The notes under the pieces are model-generated. The model made no database searches. It was not told where the DNA came from and saw nothing but the letters and a program-made list of their open reading frames with translations. Below are positions 3,409 through 27,748 of a stretch of 27,748 bases of DNA, in pieces. A program made the position numbers and the translations under genes. The stretch is from a virus. The DNA lies in the IMG/VR virus record IMGVR_UViG_3300032282_004960, positions 1 through 27,748 of that record, one strand, 5' to 3'. The number at the start of each line of letters is the position of its first letter. Position 1 is the first letter of the stretch.

Positions 3409-4155
3409 ATGAATAAATTTGGTATTGTTAAATCAAAATTGTTAACTAAGTTAACTGAATCTTACGCAAACGAAAATAAGGCGGAGATTAAAGATATTTT
3501 AACAACTATAAAGGAAAATAAAGATTTTAAAGAAATGTATTTGTTCTATGAAGAAATCGAAAACAAGTATATTGAAGATAAGGATACCGCAAGATTATAC
3601 GTTGAGGGATTAAATACGTATTTTGGTCAACCAATAGGTAATTGGGGTAAACTAAACATGTTTTGTGAATCTTTACATAATAAATTAGGTGATGTTGAAA
3701 TTGTAACAAACGATTTATATGAAGCATTAGATGTATTATCTGAACCTGACAAATTATCCAATATTGAAAAGAAGGTAACCGCAAAAAAGAAATTGGTGGA
3801 ACATTTATCAACTAAAAAGGAAATTAAAGAATCAAAAGAAACAACATTAGTTCCAAACGAAAATTTATTAAACGCTGTTTTGGCAAACAATTTTAACGTA
3901 TTATATTCAAATACACTATCTGAATCGGAAAAAGATGAATTGAAAAATATCTTATCAATTTCACACGATGAATTAATAACTAAATCAAACGAATTAGCAG
4001 AATCGGTTATTAACCAAGTATCTACACTTTTAAGTGAATCAAATGATACGGATTTATCCAACAAATTAAAGGCGGTAAAGGATGAGGTGACTCAAATGTC
4101 CCCGTCGCGATACAATTACTTTAGATTAAACGAATTAAAAAATGGTCTTAATTAA
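3409..4155 (+). CDS. Helical protein between portal and protease, possible prohead core protein
   Basis: I do not recognise this 248-residue protein by sequence. It is Lys/Glu/Asn-rich and predicted largely helical, with no membrane segment. It starts 2 nt after the portal stop, so it is surely co-transcribed and probably translationally coupled. In T4 the portal-protease interval holds small prohead core proteins (gp67, gp68), so a core or head role is a positional inference. A segment near the N-terminus, KLLTKLTES (LTE at residues 15-17), fits the (I/L)xE specificity of the T4 prohead protease and could mark processing. The last four residues, NGLN, are encoded inside a palindrome shared with the convergent bS21 gene, whose product also ends NGLN. 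The two genes overlap by 8 nt. Confidence 0.75.
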   Translation: MNKFGIVKSKLLTKLTESYANENKAEIKDILTTIKENKDFKEMYLFYEEIENKYIEDKDTARLYVEGLNTYFGQPIGNWGKLNMFCESLHNKLGDVEIVTNDLYEALDVLSEPDKLSNIEKKVTAKKKLVEHLSTKKEIKESKETTLVPNENLLNAVLANNFNVLYSNTLSESEKDELKNILSISHDELITKSNELAESVINQVSTLLSESNDTDLSNKLKAVKDEVTQMSPSRYNYFRLNELKNGLN

Positions 4156-4163
4156 GACCATTT
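4140..4163. terminator. Palindromic bidirectional terminator shared by convergent genes
   Basis: A perfect 24-nt palindrome (arm AAATGGTCTTAA and its complement) spans the stop codons of both convergent genes. It is followed by CTTTTTT on the + strand and TTTTAATTCG on the - strand, so it can act as an intrinsic terminator in both directions. Because the palindrome is in frame for both genes, both proteins end in Asn-Gly-Leu-Asn-stop. Confidence 0.75.
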
Positions 4164-4339
4164 CTTTTTTGTTGAATATACACCGCTTTTAGCTTTTGCG
4201 TTCTTTTCTTAACTGAAGGTTTTACAAATACTTGTCTCATCCTTAATTCTTGAACTTGCTTAACTTTTTGAACTTTACTTTTGTAAGTTCGAAGCGCGGT
4301 TTCAATGCTTTTTTCTTTATTTACGTCAATAATAATCAT
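4148..4339 (-). CDS. rpsU: Phage-encoded ribosomal protein bS21
   Basis: This 63-residue basic protein matches bacterial small-subunit protein bS21 over its full length. It has an N-terminal MIIIDVNKEKSIETALRTYK, the family core ELRMRQVFVKPS (31-42) with following KKR, and the C-terminal helix KLKAVYIQQKRNG. The cellular protein sits at the 30S platform by the 3' end of 16S rRNA and affects initiation. In Bacteroidetes ribosomes bS21, with bS18 and bS6, helps occlude the anti-Shine-Dalgarno tail; as I recall, Tyr54 is a contact residue, and this protein has Tyr at 54. It is the only - strand gene within the head module. Its upstream region is AT-only around the start, has no Shine-Dalgarno motif, and contains TATTTTTG, resembling a Bacteroidetes -7 element without a clear -33 partner. 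bS21 genes are known from other phages. A hijacking role is inference. Confidence 0.93.
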   Translation of the reverse strand: MIIIDVNKEKSIETALRTYKSKVQKVKQVQELRMRQVFVKPSVKKRTQKLKAVYIQQKRNGLN

Positions 4340-6943: not shown

Positions 6944-8707
6944 ATGGGAGCATTATTAGAATCAGGTATGGTAGGTAACATCGGTTTAAAACACCTTAGA
7001 GTTATCAAAGAAGATACCATCAAAAAATGGGATGACTTAGGCTTTTTAGAAGGTCTTGAAGGTCACCAAAAAGATAACATCGCGCAATTATATGAAAACC
7101 AAGCGTCTTACTTAATCAATGAAGCAGCAACAGCTGATGCATCTGGTTCTTTCGAGACTGTAGTTTTCCCTATCATTCGTCGTGTATTCTCTAAATTATT
7201 AGCTAACGACTTAGTGTCTGTTCAAGCTATGAACTTACCAATTGGTAAATTATTCTATTTCATTCCTAAAATTCAAGAAAGAGATACTACAGATCATTAC
7301 GGTCCTTACATGGGTGCAAACTCTAACTTCACTGGTGCTAATACAGCTAAAGGTGCAGGTTATCCTGATACAATTTCTTCAGGTGGTGTAGGTAAAAACC
7401 TTTACGATCGTTTCTATGAAAATAGTGATGACGCAGATCAAGGTCTTTTTGATTATTCAAAAGGTTCTTACACTGTTAACACAGCAACTGTAGCTGATAT
7501 TGTAACTTTCACTTCAGGTGTTGAAGCAAGTATCAACCCAATTGCAACTGGTACATCAGTAAGCTCAGTTATCTTGAAGATTTCTGGTTTTACAAGTGAT
7601 GGTGCAGGTAAAATCGCAGGACCAGATGGTAACTTAATGGATACTGAAGAATTTTTAGCTTCTTTAACAGTAGCTTGTTCTCAAGTAACAACTGGTAACT
7701 TACCATTCAACATCGTAACTCAAAAATACGGTAAAGGTGTTGTAGAATACGGAACAAAATCAACAGGTGCTTACACAAGTGGTAAATACTATGATATTTG
7801 TGATCAAACAGGTGTAATCTACCTTTCAGTAGATACTCAAACTTATAGCGCAGCTTCAGGTTTTGCAGATTACTCAGTAGCTGGTTCAACATTAGCTAAA
7901 GGTGATTTCGTAGTAACTTTCAGAAGTTATGATTCTTTAGAATTCGAAGAGAACATCGGTGAAGTATCTTTCGATTTACAATCAGTAACAGTTTCTGTAA
8001 CTGAAAGAAAATTAAGAGCAAGCTGGTCTCCTGAATTAGCTCAAGACGTTAGTGCATTCCACAACATCGATGCTGAAGCTGAATTAACAGCTTTATTATC
8101 TGAGCAAATCGCAGCTGAAGTTGACCGTGAAATCTTACGTGATTTACGTAAAGGTGCGGCTTGGACTGCTAAATGGGATTACAATGGATGGAAATACGGT
8201 GGAAATGGTAATTCAACTTTACAAGGTTACACTCAAAAAGATTGGAACCAAACTTTGATTACTAAAATCAACCAAATTTCTGCTCAAATCCACAAAACTA
8301 CGTTAAGAGGTGGTGCTAACTGGATTGTTGTTTCTTCAGAAGTTTCTGCAGTATTCGACGATTTAGAGTATTTCCACGTTTCTAACGCAGAACCAGAGCA
8401 AGATCAATACAACATGGGTATCGAGAAAATCGGAACAGTAGCAGGTCGCTACCAAGTTTACCGTGATCCTTACTTCCCAGCAGGTAAAATCTTGATTGGA
8501 CATAAAGGAAAGTCATTATTAGACGCAGGTTATATCTACGCTCCATATGTGCCTTTACAATTAACTCCAACAATGTATAATCCATTCAATTTTACCCCAA
8601 TTAAGGGTATTATGACAAGATACGCAAAGAAAATGGTGAACAACCGTTACTTTGGTGTAATCAACGTAAGTGGTATACAAACTTTCGATATGAACACTTT
8701 AAGATAA
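6944..8707 (+). CDS. 23: Major capsid protein precursor, gp23-like
   Basis: This 587-residue protein forms the capsid lattice. The N-terminal about 60 residues form the propeptide: the sequence ENQASYLINE followed by AATADAS gives an INE/Ala cleavage site after Glu60, close to the Glu65 site of T4 gp23. The segment VFPIIRRVFSKLLANDLVSV and QAMNLPIGKLFYFIP is the family's N-arm and start of the HK97 fold. ERKLRASWSPELAQDVSAFH and IDAEAELTALLSEQIAAEVD match the highly conserved gp23 core. The protein is longer than T4 gp23 (521 residues); the extra residues lie in the Ser/Thr/Gly-rich region about 130-320 and probably form an insertion domain on the capsid surface. Codon use is regular, fitting high expression, and the gene ends at a strong terminator. 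Confidence 0.97.
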   Translation: MGALLESGMVGNIGLKHLRVIKEDTIKKWDDLGFLEGLEGHQKDNIAQLYENQASYLINEAATADASGSFETVVFPIIRRVFSKLLANDLVSVQAMNLPIGKLFYFIPKIQERDTTDHYGPYMGANSNFTGANTAKGAGYPDTISSGGVGKNLYDRFYENSDDADQGLFDYSKGSYTVNTATVADIVTFTSGVEASINPIATGTSVSSVILKISGFTSDGAGKIAGPDGNLMDTEEFLASLTVACSQVTTGNLPFNIVTQKYGKGVVEYGTKSTGAYTSGKYYDICDQTGVIYLSVDTQTYSAASGFADYSVAGSTLAKGDFVVTFRSYDSLEFEENIGEVSFDLQSVTVSVTERKLRASWSPELAQDVSAFHNIDAEAELTALLSEQIAAEVDREILRDLRKGAAWTAKWDYNGWKYGGNGNSTLQGYTQKDWNQTLITKINQISAQIHKTTLRGGANWIVVSSEVSAVFDDLEYFHVSNAEPEQDQYNMGIEKIGTVAGRYQVYRDPYFPAGKILIGHKGKSLLDAGYIYAPYVPLQLTPTMYNPFNFTPIKGIMTRYAKKMVNNRYFGVINVSGIQTFDMNTLR

Positions 8708-8724: not shown

Positions 8725-8754
8725 AAAAAGCCCTCGAGAAATCGGGGGTTTTTT
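8725..8754 (+). terminator. Intrinsic terminator after the capsid gene
   Basis: A 13-bp stem (8725-8737 with 8742-8754; two G-T wobbles) is closed by a GAAA tetraloop and ends in a run of six T continuing TATTTT. It follows the capsid stop by 17 nt. The complementary strand also has an A/T-flanked hairpin, so it may stop transcription from either side. Confidence 0.9.
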
Positions 8755-8756
8755 AT

Positions 8757-8788
8757 TTTGGTTAATTCGAAATACGTGTGTATATTTG
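8757..8788 (+). promoter_or_regulatory. Bacteroidetes-type promoter for the SAP-like gene
   Basis: TTTG at 8757-8760, a 20-nt spacer (8761-8780) and a perfect TATATTTG at 8781-8788 match the Bacteroidetes housekeeping promoter (-33 TTTG, -7 TAnnTTTG). The ATG at 8793 follows 4 nt later, so the mRNA would be nearly leaderless. This separates the next gene from the late head operon and suggests expression by the host RNA polymerase early in infection. Confidence 0.7.
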
Positions 8789-8792
8789 CACC

Positions 8793-9131
8793 ATGACCAA
8801 AAAGAACCTAAATAATATCATTAATTCGGGACCAATTGATTACGAAAAATTGCGTTTAGACGTTCTAATTAAACTAATAGATGAACGTGGAATTACTTGT
8901 AAAAACAAGAAAGAAGAGATAATAAAATATCTCAAAATGGATGATGAGGGAAAATATATTAGGGAGACAACCTACGAAAAGGACGGAAATCGATTTTTAG
9001 TGGGTATAGACCTTAGAAATCACGAGCACTTAGTTCAAATGGGTAAGTTAGTGGAAAAGAAAGAAGCTGTCTCTAAACGCTTGTATGCGTCAGATAGAGT
9101 GTATTATATTTCTAATCAAAAATTAATTTAG
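8793..9131 (+). CDS. Small SAP-like protein, probable early gene
   Basis: This is a 112-residue soluble protein. The segment EKLRLDVLIKLIDERGITCK followed by NKKEEIIKYLK resembles a SAP helix-extended loop-helix, a small DNA/RNA-binding fold (L-x-L-x-x-L-x-x-L-x-x-x-G-I ... K-x-E-x-I-x-x-L). The remaining residues are charged and unrecognised. I chose ATG 8793 over an in-frame GTG at 8778 because the GTG lies before the -7 element, so codons from 8778 to 8792 would be upstream of the predicted transcript. The gene is isolated between a terminator on its left and a convergent virion gene 1 nt to its right. The promoter suggests early or constitutive expression, unlike its neighbours. Function is unknown; nucleic-acid binding is a fold-based guess. 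Confidence 0.72.
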   Translation: MTKKNLNNIINSGPIDYEKLRLDVLIKLIDERGITCKNKKEEIIKYLKMDDEGKYIRETTYEKDGNRFLVGIDLRNHEHLVQMGKLVEKKEAVSKRLYASDRVYYISNQKLI

Positions 9132-9132
9132 A

Positions 9133-9846
9133 TTACCAAGTTCTACAAGCCCAATATCTTGGTTTCCAACGTGGGCCTGGATTGTCGCAATTCATACGAG
9201 CTCTGAATGATTTTCTTCTTTCAGGATTATCCTTTTTGATTACCATTCTTTTACCGTGAGCAGATTTACCACCGAAACCAAAGTTTACTTTAACAACTTT
9301 ACCTTTGTCATTTTTAACATATACTTTAAATTTCTTAATATCACCTTGCATAATTTTACCTAATTGAACTTTACGTCCTTGGTATTCAGCTTCAATTAAT
9401 AAATCATCTGAATTGTATTTTGTGTTTTCAACAACACCATATTCATCTTCATAATGAACACCTTCGATAGATTCGTTTTTAGGAACACAATTTGGAACGT
9501 CCCTACCATTTTTTTCTTTAGTCCCAATCATTTGGTAACCTTTCCAACATGGATTTTTCATTTCGTTCATGTCTTGGTCAATAGATTTATCGCCGTTTAA
9601 TTCATTCATTAAGAAATCAAAAACTTGGTCAATATTTTCTTTTGCGGAAGATACATGGTCATCAGCCCAATCGTGCCCATTAGATAATAACTCATTTACT
9701 GAATTTTCATCTAAATTTAACAACAATTCACATTGTCTTTTAATTTGTTGTAGATTACTAAAGAACATATAGTTTCCGCCGTGTTCTTCGTTTTCTTTTA
9801 AAACACTTTTAAGGTGTTTGATGATGATTTTATTGATGTTTTCCAT
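9133..9846 (-). CDS. Probable virion-associated protein with Cys/Trp motifs
   Basis: I recognise motifs but no assigned function in this 237-residue protein. The middle contains NPCWKGYQMIGTKEKNGRDV then PNCVP, a Cys-Trp-Gly pattern I associate with proteins from other large tailed phages. The C-terminus is strongly basic and aromatic: FGFGGKSAHGKRMVIKKDNP, ERRKSFRARMNCDNPGPRW, KPRYWACRTW. Paired Cys residues (NPCW/PNCVP and MNCD/WACR) could form two small disulfide or metal knots. The N-terminus MENINKIIIKHLKSVLKENE is a helix ending in an LxE-like site (LKE). The gene is last in the baseplate operon, ends 1 nt from the convergent SAP-like gene and begins 3 nt after a box variant TATTTATT. 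Confidence 0.75.
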   Translation of the reverse strand: MENINKIIIKHLKSVLKENEEHGGNYMFFSNLQQIKRQCELLLNLDENSVNELLSNGHDWADDHVSSAKENIDQVFDFLMNELNGDKSIDQDMNEMKNPCWKGYQMIGTKEKNGRDVPNCVPKNESIEGVHYEDEYGVVENTKYNSDDLLIEAEYQGRKVQLGKIMQGDIKKFKVYVKNDKGKVVKVNFGFGGKSAHGKRMVIKKDNPERRKSFRARMNCDNPGPRWKPRYWACRTW

Positions 9847-15291: not shown

Positions 15292-15993
15292 TTATTCTAA
15301 AAACCCACCCAAAATCCCATCATACATTTTTTTGTATCTTTTCAGTGAAATACGGATTTCTTTTGTTGAGAGCGATGTCATTTCCCTGAGGGATAGAAGA
15401 ATTAGGTTTTTATTAAATTTATTACCATCCCCAACCTGAAAAATCTTGTCAAAATTGCTAAAGATTTCCAATAACGCATAACCTAATTTTTGCTCATTAT
15501 CCGATAAATCTTCCTTTTCAATAAATTCCTCTAAGGATATGGTTAATTTTATAATAACATCTCTATAATCAATTATATGTTCATCAATAACATATGTTAA
15601 ATCGGGCCTACCGTCTTCAATATCAGATGATATGTCATCATAAGATACTTGTCTGTTTTGCTCCTTCGTATCTTTTTGAATGGCCCCCATTAAGTAATTT
15701 TTACAAATGGTTCCAAAATATGAATAAGCCTTAGTATTCTTTGTGTGGTCGAATTTATTAATCTTAGTAATAAGAAAAGACATTGTGTCATTATGAATTT
15801 CTTCAAATTCCATATCCTTTCTATAAAGTTTATAACGTCGAATAATTGATTCAACCATTATAATTAGGGGTTCACGTAAATATTCATTGAATATCTTATT
15901 TCTTTCTGTTTCATCAACACTTTCTAAGTAATTGACTACCGCCTTCTCTTGATCCTCCCCAAAATATATTTTTTGGGTTCGTTTTCTCGGCAT
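15292..15993 (-). CDS. 55: Late-transcription sigma factor, gp55-like
   Basis: This 233-residue protein should redirect the host RNA polymerase to phage late promoters. Residues 38-108 form a sigma region 2: EYLREPLIIMVESIIRRYKL, MEFEEIHNDTMSFLITKINK, then FDHTKNTKAYSYFGTICKNY and LMGAIQK. The KFD...K...AYSYF...I..N...G.I.K pattern is that of the gp55 family of T4-like phages. The C-terminal 37 residues (LREMTSLSTKEIRISLKRYK) look like a small helix-turn-helix, possibly a reduced region 4. It is somewhat longer than T4 gp55 (185 residues). It is the last gene of a unit that includes two glycosyltransferases, overlapping the preceding gene by 1 nt. The recurrent TATTTATA boxes are its likely targets, by inference. 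Confidence 0.88.
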   Translation of the reverse strand: MPRKRTQKIYFGEDQEKAVVNYLESVDETERNKIFNEYLREPLIIMVESIIRRYKLYRKDMEFEEIHNDTMSFLITKINKFDHTKNTKAYSYFGTICKNYLMGAIQKDTKEQNRQVSYDDISSDIEDGRPDLTYVIDEHIIDYRDVIIKLTISLEEFIEKEDLSDNEQKLGYALLEIFSNFDKIFQVGDGNKFNKNLILLSLREMTSLSTKEIRISLKRYKKMYDGILGGFLE

Positions 15994-19518: not shown

Positions 19519-20163
19519 CTACTTTCCCGTAGAGCCGAATCCACCACTACCTCTTTCTGTATCTGATAATTCAGGAACTTCAGTCATATATATTTTAGGA
19601 TAAGGCATGATTATGATTTGCGCGCCTCTATCACCAACATTATACTTGATGCTATCTAACCCATTAGTTTTCTTAAATGTGGCCTGAATTTCTCCCCTAT
19701 ATCCACTATCGATAACACCAACACAATTTGATAAAATCAATTCTTGGTTTCTAACGGATGAGCGTGGGTATACAAAACCAACGAAATTTTTTGGTATTTC
19801 CATAGCTATTCCAAAACCATATGTAACACTAAATGAGGTGTTTTCAATGATACTTGTAATAGTTAAATCCATACCCGCATCGCCAACTTTAGAATAAGAT
19901 GGTATTACCGCATTAGAGCTTAATTTCTTTACTTTAATAAGAAACCCATCGTTGTAAACGCTAAAATCATTATATGTGGCTTGTTGTGGTGCGGCGGTAG
20001 CCGAAGGATTTTGAGGCTGGGCTCCACCCATTTTCTCATTAACTAACGTCATAATGTCGTCAATTTCTTTTAGAAAGTCTTGGTCCACTTCAACGTCATC
20101 ATTAATATCGTGTTCAATTTGCTTTAATTTTTCAACATAAGCTAAAATATCTTTACTATCCAT
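19519..20163 (-). CDS. dut: dUTPase with N-terminal extension
   Basis: This enzyme hydrolyses dUTP to dUMP, keeping uracil out of phage DNA and supplying dTMP synthesis. All five trimeric dUTPase motifs are present: I GDAGMDL (94-100), II PRSSV (133-137), III GVIDSGYRGE (149-158) with the catalytic Asp, IV GDRGAQ (177-182) and V RGSGGFGSTG (204-213) with the Phe that stacks on uracil. The enzyme domain occupies about residues 70-214. In front of it are about 45 acidic helical residues (DILAYVEKLKQIEHDINDDV) and a Pro/Ala/Gln-rich linker (46-62), not part of typical dUTPases. It overlaps the upstream 73-residue gene by 8 nt and is followed by phoH. Confidence 0.95.
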   Translation of the reverse strand: MDSKDILAYVEKLKQIEHDINDDVEVDQDFLKEIDDIMTLVNEKMGGAQPQNPSATAAPQQATYNDFSVYNDGFLIKVKKLSSNAVIPSYSKVGDAGMDLTITSIIENTSFSVTYGFGIAMEIPKNFVGFVYPRSSVRNQELILSNCVGVIDSGYRGEIQATFKKTNGLDSIKYNVGDRGAQIIIMPYPKIYMTEVPELSDTERGSGGFGSTGK

Positions 20164-25358: not shown

Positions 25359-25399
25359 TTTATATAAATATCAAACGATACGAAAGATATTTATATAAA
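25359..25399. promoter_or_regulatory. Divergent pair of late promoter boxes in a 14-bp inverted repeat
   Basis: Between the divergent genes at 25347 (-) and 25401 (+), two TATTTATA boxes point outward (25363-25370 on -, 25388-25395 on +). They are embedded in a perfect 14-bp inverted repeat (25359-25372 and 25386-25399) around a 13-nt spacer. The left box is 15 nt from its ATG and the right box 5 nt from its ATG. The symmetry could be two back-to-back promoters, or an operator for a dimeric regulator. Confidence 0.6.
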
Positions 25400-26574: not shown

Positions 26575-27748
26575 ATGGCAAATAAGAAAATCTCACAATT
26601 ACCTTCCGGTTCTTCAATTATACCTTTAACAGGTCAAACTGCAGTTGTATACTCAGGAACAACATATCAACAAACAATTTCATCACTTAGACAAAACTTA
26701 GTTGATAGTGGTTCGCACCATTTTACCGGTAGTCAATATATTAATGGCAACTTAATTGTTACTGGTTCAATAACGGCACAAGAGTTTATTATTAGTTCAT
26801 CGGTAACTCACATAACCGTTCAAAATAAGAGTGGTTCATCTGTTTTTGGTGATACTCAAGATGATACACATCAATTTACAGGTAGTGTATATATAACAGG
26901 TTCAAGATTAGAAATAAGTGGTGGAGATTTCATATTAAATGGAACATCTTACATTTCACAAACTTCAGGAACATCAGGAACATCAGGTGAAAGCGGTTCT
27001 TCAGGAAGTGATGGTTCTTCTGGAACAAGTGGAGAATCAGGAAGTTCTGGAACAAGTGGAGAATCAGGAAGTTCTGGAACAAGTGGAGAATCAGGAAGTT
27101 CTGGAACAAGTGGAGAATCAGGAAGTTCTGGAACATCAGGTGAAAGCGGTTCTTCTGGAACAAGTGGAGAATCAGGAAGTTCTGGAACAAGTGGAGAATC
27201 AGGAAGTTCTGGAACATCAGGAACATCTGGTCAAGATGGTCAATCTAATACAATATTTAATTATAAGGCAAAAACAACAACACAAAGTGGGAATCCTGGC
27301 CATGGTTATATCATATGGAATAATGTAAATCAAACCGGATCAACTGAAATTTCAATAAATCATTTAACCGACACACCAATTAGAGATGTTGATTTATTTT
27401 TAGGTATTTTACAATATGGTTATACAATAACAGTTCAAGACAGATATAATAGTCAAAATTATCAAGTTTGGATTATTAACGGAACACCAGTAGAAACTAT
27501 AGTTAATGAATATTGGACAATACCTGTATCATTACAAAGTTCAGGTGGAGATGGATTAATTAATTTTTCAGACAACTTAGATTTATTTATTACACTTATA
27601 ACACCTTCGGGTACTAGTGGTACATCGGGTTCTTCTGGAACTAGTGGTGTGAATGGTTCTTCTGGAACTAGTGGTGTGAATGGTTCTTCTGGAACTAGTG
27701 GTGTGAATGGTTCTTCTGGAACTAGTGGAAGTTCAGGATATCAAGGAG
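26575..27748 (+). CDS. Collagen-like tail fibre protein (3' end cut by window)
   Basis: An ATG at 26575 opens a frame that stays open to the right edge (391 complete codons). It begins MANKKISQLPSGSSIIPLTG, a common start of phage tail-fibre proteins, followed by beta-rich repeats with FTGSQYINGNLIVTGSITAQ and HQFTGSVYITGS. Residues about 132-222 form a Gly-X-Y collagen-like stretch with unit GTSGESGSS. A globular domain of about 120 residues (FNYKAKTTTQSGNPGHGYII ...) follows. A second Gly-X-Y stretch with unit GSSGTSGVN then runs to the edge. Gly-X-Y stretches in fibres form trimeric stalks between knobs. The first knob may bind a receptor or assemble the trimer. It follows the lectin-like gene by 13 nt. 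The true end is outside the window. Confidence 0.85.
   Translation, partial: MANKKISQLPSGSSIIPLTGQTAVVYSGTTYQQTISSLRQNLVDSGSHHFTGSQYINGNLIVTGSITAQEFIISSSVTHITVQNKSGSSVFGDTQDDTHQFTGSVYITGSRLEISGGDFILNGTSYISQTSGTSGTSGESGSSGSDGSSGTSGESGSSGTSGESGSSGTSGESGSSGTSGESGSSGTSGESGSSGTSGESGSSGTSGESGSSGTSGTSGQDGQSNTIFNYKAKTTTQSGNPGHGYIIWNNVNQTGSTEISINHLTDTPIRDVDLFLGILQYGYTITVQDRYNSQNYQVWIINGTPVETIVNEYWTIPVSLQSSGGDGLINFSDNLDLFITLITPSGTSGTSGSSGTSGVNGSSGTSGVNGSSGTSGVNGSSGTSGSSGYQG
26968..27243 (+). repeat. Collagen-like coding repeats, 27-nt unit (GTSGESGSS)
   Basis: Gly-X-Y codons run through this stretch. The 27-nt unit encoding GTSGESGSS occurs in identical form six times (27022-27129 in four copies, 27157-27210 in two) with one synonymous variant between (27130-27156). 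Identity at the DNA level points to recent expansion or slippage. Confidence 0.9.
27610..27748 (+). repeat. Second collagen-like repeat block, 27-nt unit (GSSGTSGVN)
   Basis: Three identical 27-nt copies at 27628-27708 encode GSSGTSGVN, followed by a diverging copy that runs off the edge. The unit differs in sequence from the first block, so the two arrays expanded independently. Confidence 0.85.

Follow-up and report, generated by a model that had tools for sequence, protein, structure and literature searches.

A conserved small gene with a host-type promoter and a predicted leaderless start behind the capsid gene of a putative huge Bacteroidota phage

A gene for a 112-residue protein, referred to here as P (8793..9131, plus strand), lies behind the major capsid gene in a virus record of 27,748 bases (the window, meaning the whole stretch of DNA that was analyzed). 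With moderate confidence, we read P and its promoter as a clade-specific and long-established early-type unit inside the late module of a bS21-encoding huge Bacteroidota phage, from which a leaderless message for a nucleic-acid-binding accessory protein would be made. According to this proposal, host RNA polymerase with the housekeeping sigma factor would read TTTGG-N19-TATATTTG before the late sigma factor of the phage takes over, and transcription would start on the A of the AUG. Only the promoter and the start codon would set the output of such a leaderless message. Late capsid transcripts would be kept from entering P by the terminator of the capsid gene itself, the T-tract of which leads into the −33 element. 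The protein itself would serve as a small nucleic-acid-binding accessory of early infection, helping to take over the host, to replicate, or to supply nucleotides. A dCMP deaminase gene on the same strand, which would share the P message, overlaps or directly follows the P stop in about half of the distinct relatives; the form in the window would have lost this gene or never had it.

Genomic setting

The window contains a T4-like phage head and tail module, with terminase, portal, protease, and capsid genes. The major capsid protein is of the T4 gp23 type (6944..8707, plus strand; PHROG 138 major head protein, E 8e-68). Comparison of this protein with phage records gave 2502 matches, every one below 60% identity. 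The best listed match is an uncultured phage (33% over 94%), the next listed is Flavobacterium phage immuto (31.5% over 97%), and a Microcystis phage matches at 42.5% over 56%. In the immuto record, genes other than P lie downstream of the capsid gene.

The phage group is marked by a gene for ribosomal protein bS21 (4148..4339; Pfam PF01165, E 2.7e-12), which lies on the reverse strand between the portal and protease genes. Huge phages encoding bS21, with freshwater Bacteroidetes as predicted hosts, have been described by Chen et al. (2022, PMC9723584). The published genomes and the window have in common terminase, portal, reverse-strand bS21, protease and capsid genes, and a low GC content. 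Since the window carries a reverse-strand bS21 gene amid terminase, portal, protease, and capsid genes, it fits within this group. The abstract and Results of that paper describe neither P nor promoters, and the words "promoter" and "deaminase" do not occur in its main text. RNA mapping reported in the same study indicates that this region is not one operon and that the capsid gene may be co-transcribed with the gene upstream. Thymidylate synthase and dUTPase are reported as common families of these phages (PMC9723584). The window has a dUTPase gene in a minus-strand module (19519-20163, minus strand; Pfam E 1e-19), which agrees with the presence of dTMP supply genes in these phages.

Downstream, P faces the convergent gene D (9133..9846, minus strand), which matches PHROG 9737 and 7595, both of unknown function. 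The stop codons of P and D are separated by 1 nt, which is too little for a second terminator between them, and late minus-strand transcripts may run antisense through P. Farther along, a protein weakly similar to late sigma factors of the gp55 type is encoded at 15292..15993 (minus strand; PHROG 234 late sigma factor, E 1e-4). The match of this protein to Pfam Sigma70_r2 (E 6e-4) is below the family cut-off; it is a candidate for the factor that would read the late-type motif discussed below. At 26575-27747, an open reading frame with long SGTSG-type repeats, perhaps a tail fibre gene, runs off the end of the window.

Terminator, promoter, and start codon of P

An intrinsic terminator with a 9 bp stem, a GAAA loop, and a T-tract follows the capsid gene (8729..8754, plus strand). 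The hairpin AGCCCTCGA-GAAA-TCGGGGGTT occupies 8729-8750, and the T-tract 8749-8754. The predicted folding energy of the hairpin region is −22.3 kcal/mol (z −6.8), a value equaled in none of 200 shuffles, so that the strong GAAA-loop terminator described in an earlier note on this DNA is indeed present. Our general terminator scan returned no sites between 6500 and 11500 and hence overlooked this hairpin. A stem and a T-tract occur in all 96 distinct 62-nt segments 3′ of a capsid stop, with or without P (mean −20.1, weakest −14.9 kcal/mol; the shuffle comparison applies to the window segment alone and the other 95 are plain folding energies). The stem sequences vary by locus, with cores such as CCCTCGA/TCGGGGG, CCCTCACA/TGTGGGGG, GGGGGAC/GTCCCCC, and GGTCAGA/TCTGACC. 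The script counted 69 stems, a number inflated by arm length, as these are strings cut by the script; in one locus (L030) the stem it picked is not the main hairpin seen in the sequence. Because the terminator is present regardless of P, it is a feature of the capsid gene. The same note had called the cassette insulated. This term should be qualified: the terminator is the capsid gene's own, and the stop of D is 1 nt away.

A bidirectional terminator in the window was considered and rejected. On the reverse strand, these 51 nt fold with only −10.0 kcal/mol, compared to −22.3 kcal/mol, because a U-G pair turns into A-C. Owing to this U-G pair in the stem at 8729-8750, the hairpin is strong in the plus direction alone; fully paired terminator stems are seen in many relatives that lack P.

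Bacteroidetes housekeeping promoters, read by sigma-A of Flavobacterium or sigma-ABfr, consist of TTTG at −33 and TAnnTTTG at −7, and both elements are found in front of P. The −33 element TTTGG lies at 8757..8761 (TTTG at 8757-8760) and the −7 box TATATTTG, a TAHHTTTG sequence, at 8781..8788, 20 nt after TTTG; both are on the plus strand. The ATG at 8793 follows 4 nt past the box and opens 112 codons that end with the stop at 9129-9131. All of these elements are where the earlier note had placed them, and this host-type promoter differs from the late-type motifs that front other genes of the window.

The window has a single copy of TATATTTG. A loose pattern, TTTG-N18..22-TANNTTTG, matches once where 2.25 matches are expected, which is not significant. 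The stricter pattern TTTGG-N17..21-TATATTTG also matches once, at P; the mean over 300 dinucleotide shuffles is 0.03 (at least one match in 9 of 300), an expectation that is not blind because the pattern was picked after viewing P sites and the promoters of a large relative, G002. TTTGG opens most of the listed early-type promoters of G002. A 48-column profile made from 21 early-type sites of the same genome scores the P site at −5.5, outside the top eight of the window. This profile mixes two spacings and includes a leader that is absent from the P promoter, and the two-part pattern was used instead.

Viral contigs were scanned for relatives in three overlapping ways: 24 loci were retrieved by P, 80 by the capsid (the best 80 of at least 600), and the best 80 of 179 by an alignment of P. 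At least 116 loci hold P with a stop codon, a number that counts some contigs fetched twice; the distinct-protein counts are free of such repeats and give at least 65 proteins, including that of the window and one cut at its start. One of the 65 (L115) is without upstream DNA, which leaves 64 for comparison of promoters. The TAHHTTTG box ends 4-7 nt before the ATG in 55 of these 64 distinct relatives, namely at 4 nt in 37, 5 nt in 16, 6 nt in one, and 7 nt in one. TTTG stands exactly 20 nt upstream of the box in 27 of the 55 and at other distances of 17-22 nt in 10; in 18 it is missing 17-23 nt upstream.

The nine relatives without the full box fall into two sets. Five have TAHHTT lacking the final TG, 4-6 nt from the ATG, and two of these (L034 and L036) carry the late-like motif TATTTATA at the position of the box. 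L060, L065, L149, and L164 have neither TAHHTTTG nor TAHHTT. The box is absent from L060 because another gene stands in front of P, and probably from L149 for the same reason. In L060 this different gene, between the capsid stop and 8108, has the leaderless arrangement: it follows the capsid terminator, and its ATG comes 4 nt after TATATTTG.

Twenty-five different sequences occur in the 4-5 nt that separate the box from the ATG, so that the distance is conserved and the letters are not. For Flavobacterium johnsoniae, position −5 is reported for the G that ends the box (PMC6847099). In this register, the 4-nt distance would place position +1 of the P message on the A of the ATG at 8793. As a prediction, a leaderless, host-type message for P is well supported by this geometry, which the earlier note had proposed for the window and which we find kept in the relatives. 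Leaderless transcripts are reported to be rare in Bacteroidetes hosts: in F. psychrophilum they account for 5.5% of the mRNAs that were examined (PMC9723704), and leaders longer than 10 nt were found in 87% of the predicted transcripts of F. johnsoniae (PMC6847099). In contrast to this rare use by the hosts, the near-start spacing of P is kept across its relatives.

Distribution of P and the predicted protein

Loci retrieved by P contain P by construction, and prevalence was therefore taken from capsid-retrieved loci only. From the best 80 of at least 600 capsid matches, 65 loci differ in their capsid and extend at least 700 nt beyond it; 39 of these belong to the clade with P. P is found at the same place in 27 of the 39. 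Here and on the tree below, a locus was labeled as having the deaminase if tblastn matched at any point of the stretch fetched, so that short loci may miss a deaminase; by this count, 20 of the 39 loci have P and deaminase, 7 have P alone, 10 have deaminase alone, and 2 have neither. On a capsid tree of 105 rows (quick method, no bootstrap), P requires 5 changes and the deaminase 14, and all rows with P fall on one side of 79 rows (SH-aLRT 100). Searches by tblastn at E 0.01 gave no match to P or the deaminase in the outer 26 rows. The earlier note had counted the presence of P at the same place in all relatives as evidence against its own reading. Within the clade this is largely what we observe (27/39), but not outside of it (0/26).

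A deaminase gene starts at the P stop in 33 of the 65 distinct-P loci listed, and the one that was scanned matches Pfam dCMP_cyt_deam_1 (E 1e-19). Such same-strand genes, which abut or overlap P, should share its message. In 22 of the 65 loci, including the window, D is directly convergent with P and there is no deaminase; nine others show a different neighbor or end too soon, and in one the deaminase lies farther on. Among the window and 11 large records that were searched whole, the deaminase occurs once or never: it is present in 8 of 12, always beside P, and missing in the window, G001, G003, and G005 (all records are possibly fragments). Judged by these distributions, the deaminase gene is more labile than P. 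In 8 of the 10 rows with deaminase alone, it is the deaminase gene that follows the capsid terminator, and a TATA-type box stands 4-5 nt ahead of its ATG. Some relatives have other genes between the terminator and P.

The 65 distinct homologues and a median dN/dS of 0.16 (325 pairs; 61 of 65 distinct proteins, with L027, L115, L149, and L164 left out) establish that P is a real gene under purifying selection. A search of 50,697 phage records gave no match to P at E up to 1, and the 42 pattern matches in bacterial genome contigs were not confirmed. There is no confident Pfam or PHROG match either (best PHROG E 0.0085, weak).

We modeled P with AlphaFold from 43 sequences (alignment A1, 43 of the 45 distinct proteins then known; a second alignment, A2, has 30). 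The model (pLDDT 88.9) consists of a SAP-like helix pair followed by a beta-beta-alpha-beta-beta domain. The SAP-like part (residues 15-53; 8835..8951, plus strand) has predicted helices at residues 22-32 and 40-51, and the helix block reaches a pLDDT of 90 to 95. This predicted two-helix arrangement resembles that in the SAP domain of Tho1 and in the N-terminal domain of Rho. Structural comparison with P gave Z values of 5.0 (rmsd 2.5, 47 aligned) and 5.1 (rmsd 4.9, 49 aligned) for Tho1 SAP, below the safe level of the tool, and up to 5.5 (rmsd 2.1, 43 aligned) for Rho; the top VIA structural row is an unrelated ATPase (Z 5.7). Foldseek returned nothing at E 0.001 or better from the PDB and viral models. 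On the profile level, the Tho1 SAP profile matches P at E 0.012, where clear false matches start at 0.057, and Pfam SAP matches 7 of 43 family members at E up to 1 (best 8e-4). The P of the window itself has no match to Pfam SAP (PF02037) at E up to 5 and thus stays short of the curated cut-off. The name SAP-like given by the earlier note holds for the two predicted helices and the weak profile matches that accord with them, but not for a Pfam assignment of the window protein. The evidence for a SAP-like N-terminus in the model is weak but concordant.

P differs from SAP domains by an additional second domain and by a SAP part that is not basic. At pH 7.5 the calculated charge is −1.6 for the SAP part, which is slightly acidic, and +2.5 for the C-terminal part; the P of the window is basic as a whole (pI 9.2; family median 8.9, range 4.9-9.3). 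The C-terminal domain (residues 57-109; 8961..9119, plus strand) was predicted with a pLDDT of 91.5 when folded alone. Its topology is a common arrangement, and a structure search gave no clear match: the best Z was 4.2, and kinase N-lobes and designed proteins made up most of the matches. Locus L027 encodes a 62-residue homologue of P without the SAP part (7817-8005), which is still preceded by a host-type box and followed by the deaminase gene. As L027 keeps only the C-terminal domain, this domain looks like the constant core of the family, judging from this single case. Our best guess is that P binds nucleic acid early in infection. T4 MotB and T7 Gp5.7 are small early DNA-binding proteins of host take-over; P is likewise small, early-type, and probably nucleic-acid-binding, which makes for a functional analogy only.

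Promoter classes, rival readings, and implications

The T4 late promoter box is TATAAATA, and TATTTATA, when read in the direction of the gene, is its reverse complement. Late promoters of T4 are reported to consist of an 8-bp TATA box (PMC2988020). In the window, motif matches mark putative late promoters TATTTATA at 1560, 4882, 5643, 25388, and 26564 on the plus strand and at 25370, 19515, 15287, and 11247 on the minus strand. Nine of ten copies lie no more than about 35 nt before a gene, including the portal gene, the protease gene, and the gene for a 413-residue protein that precedes the capsid gene. The capsid gene has no TATTTATA in front, which agrees with the published hint that it is co-transcribed with the gene upstream (PMC9723584).

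The same motif is enriched in four large relatives, whose genes were called as longest open reading frames by a crude procedure, so that distances to the ATG may be off. In G001, 61 of 424 called genes have TATTTATA in the 45 nt ahead of them, as do 48 of 384 in G002, 41 of 262 in G003, and 39 of 355 in G004. The expected numbers are 2.6, 2.8, 1.5, and 1.4, respectively, which corresponds to an enrichment of about 17- to 28-fold. The opposite reading direction, TATAAATA, was discarded because it is found upstream of only 9, 16, 7, and 4 genes. The motif stands 3-8 nt from the ATG in 31/61, 17/48, 19/41, and 15/39 of the fronted genes. We read TATTTATA as the probable late promoter, which fronts structural genes near P.

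The host-type promoter is distributed differently. TTTGG-N17..21-TATATTTG matches 30 times in G002, with 28 of the matches at 140-180 kb, away from the structural module, and this part of G002 is probably an early region. We observed in the same part (L192-L193) a run of small plus-strand genes, many of which show TTTGGAAATA...GTTGTATATTTGT along with AAACAATTAAAA in a leader. In G001 there are 4 matches, one of which shares a 20-kb bin with P. Of the 28 G002 genes with TATATTTG upstream, P alone has the box no more than 7 nt from the ATG. Such close boxes front 4 of 11 genes in G001 and 3 of 24 in G004, P included in both, and 2 of 4 in G003, where the crude caller missed the start of P. Because the other TATATTTG boxes of G002 and G004 lie mostly 10-39 nt from the ATG, P is atypical of its class.

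The promoter of P suggests that this gene is switched on before the surrounding capsid genes. It is possible, if rather unlikely, that P is instead expressed late or throughout infection, either because the host sigma factor reads the box at all times or because the late sigma factor accepts it. The surrounding genes are of late type, and in L034 and L036 TATTTATA takes the place of the box; but the full host-type box, including its TTTG, is kept in 55 of 64 relatives and the TTTGG box of G002 is concentrated away from the structural module. We find it hardly credible that chance alone made an AT-rich string look like a −7 box and that P is made by read-through from the capsid gene. The loose pattern is indeed expected 2.25 times in the window. 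However, a chance promoter had to be dropped given that the spacing to the ATG is conserved while the spacer takes 25 forms, and read-through would have to pass the strong terminator between the capsid gene and P.

The main alternative to nucleic-acid binding is a deaminase-linked role, in which P would chiefly be a partner of the dCMP deaminase (in fold, activity, or control at the RNA level) and serve dTMP supply instead of transcription control. We consider this role unlikely. The two genes overlap or abut in 33 of 65 distinct loci, the deaminase was never away from P in the 12 records searched whole, and the window has a dUTPase gene in keeping with the common occurrence of thymidylate synthase and dUTPase in these phages (PMC9723584). 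These links are offset by the higher stability of P on the capsid tree (5 versus 14 changes), by the 22 distinct loci, including the window, with P against D and no deaminase, and by the ten rows with a deaminase and no P. The earlier note had seen here the layout of a moron-like insertion or an early regulator. A recent arrival of promoter, gene, and terminator together now appears very improbable, even though the slot varies in what it holds (relatives have a deaminase, minus-strand reading frames, or other genes there) and P was not found in the outer group of 26 rows. P is not absent from this site in close relatives, as would be typical of a moron: 27 of the 39 clade loci retrieved by the capsid have it there, with few changes on the tree. 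The promoter is its own, but the terminator is the capsid gene's and independent of P. The clade-wide distribution thus largely refutes a recent insertion.

A wider possibility, which we regard as doubtful, is that these phages use leaderless messages as a system that comprises P, with its host-type promoter, and many late genes. Given that the phage has its own bS21, a swap from host to phage bS21 could partition translation among leaderless early, leaderless late, and leadered messages. The analysis provides evidence, drawn from sequence only, for two promoter classes in huge uncultured Bacteroidota phages, and it draws attention to a conserved family, that of P, to which neither Pfam nor PHROG gives a confident assignment. 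P also lends itself to testing how leaderless messages are translated in bacteria that do without Shine-Dalgarno pairing. Lake metatranscriptomes have already been mapped to phages of this group (PMC9723584). If the phages of that lake carry P, the start site and the timing of its message may be checkable without isolation of a phage.
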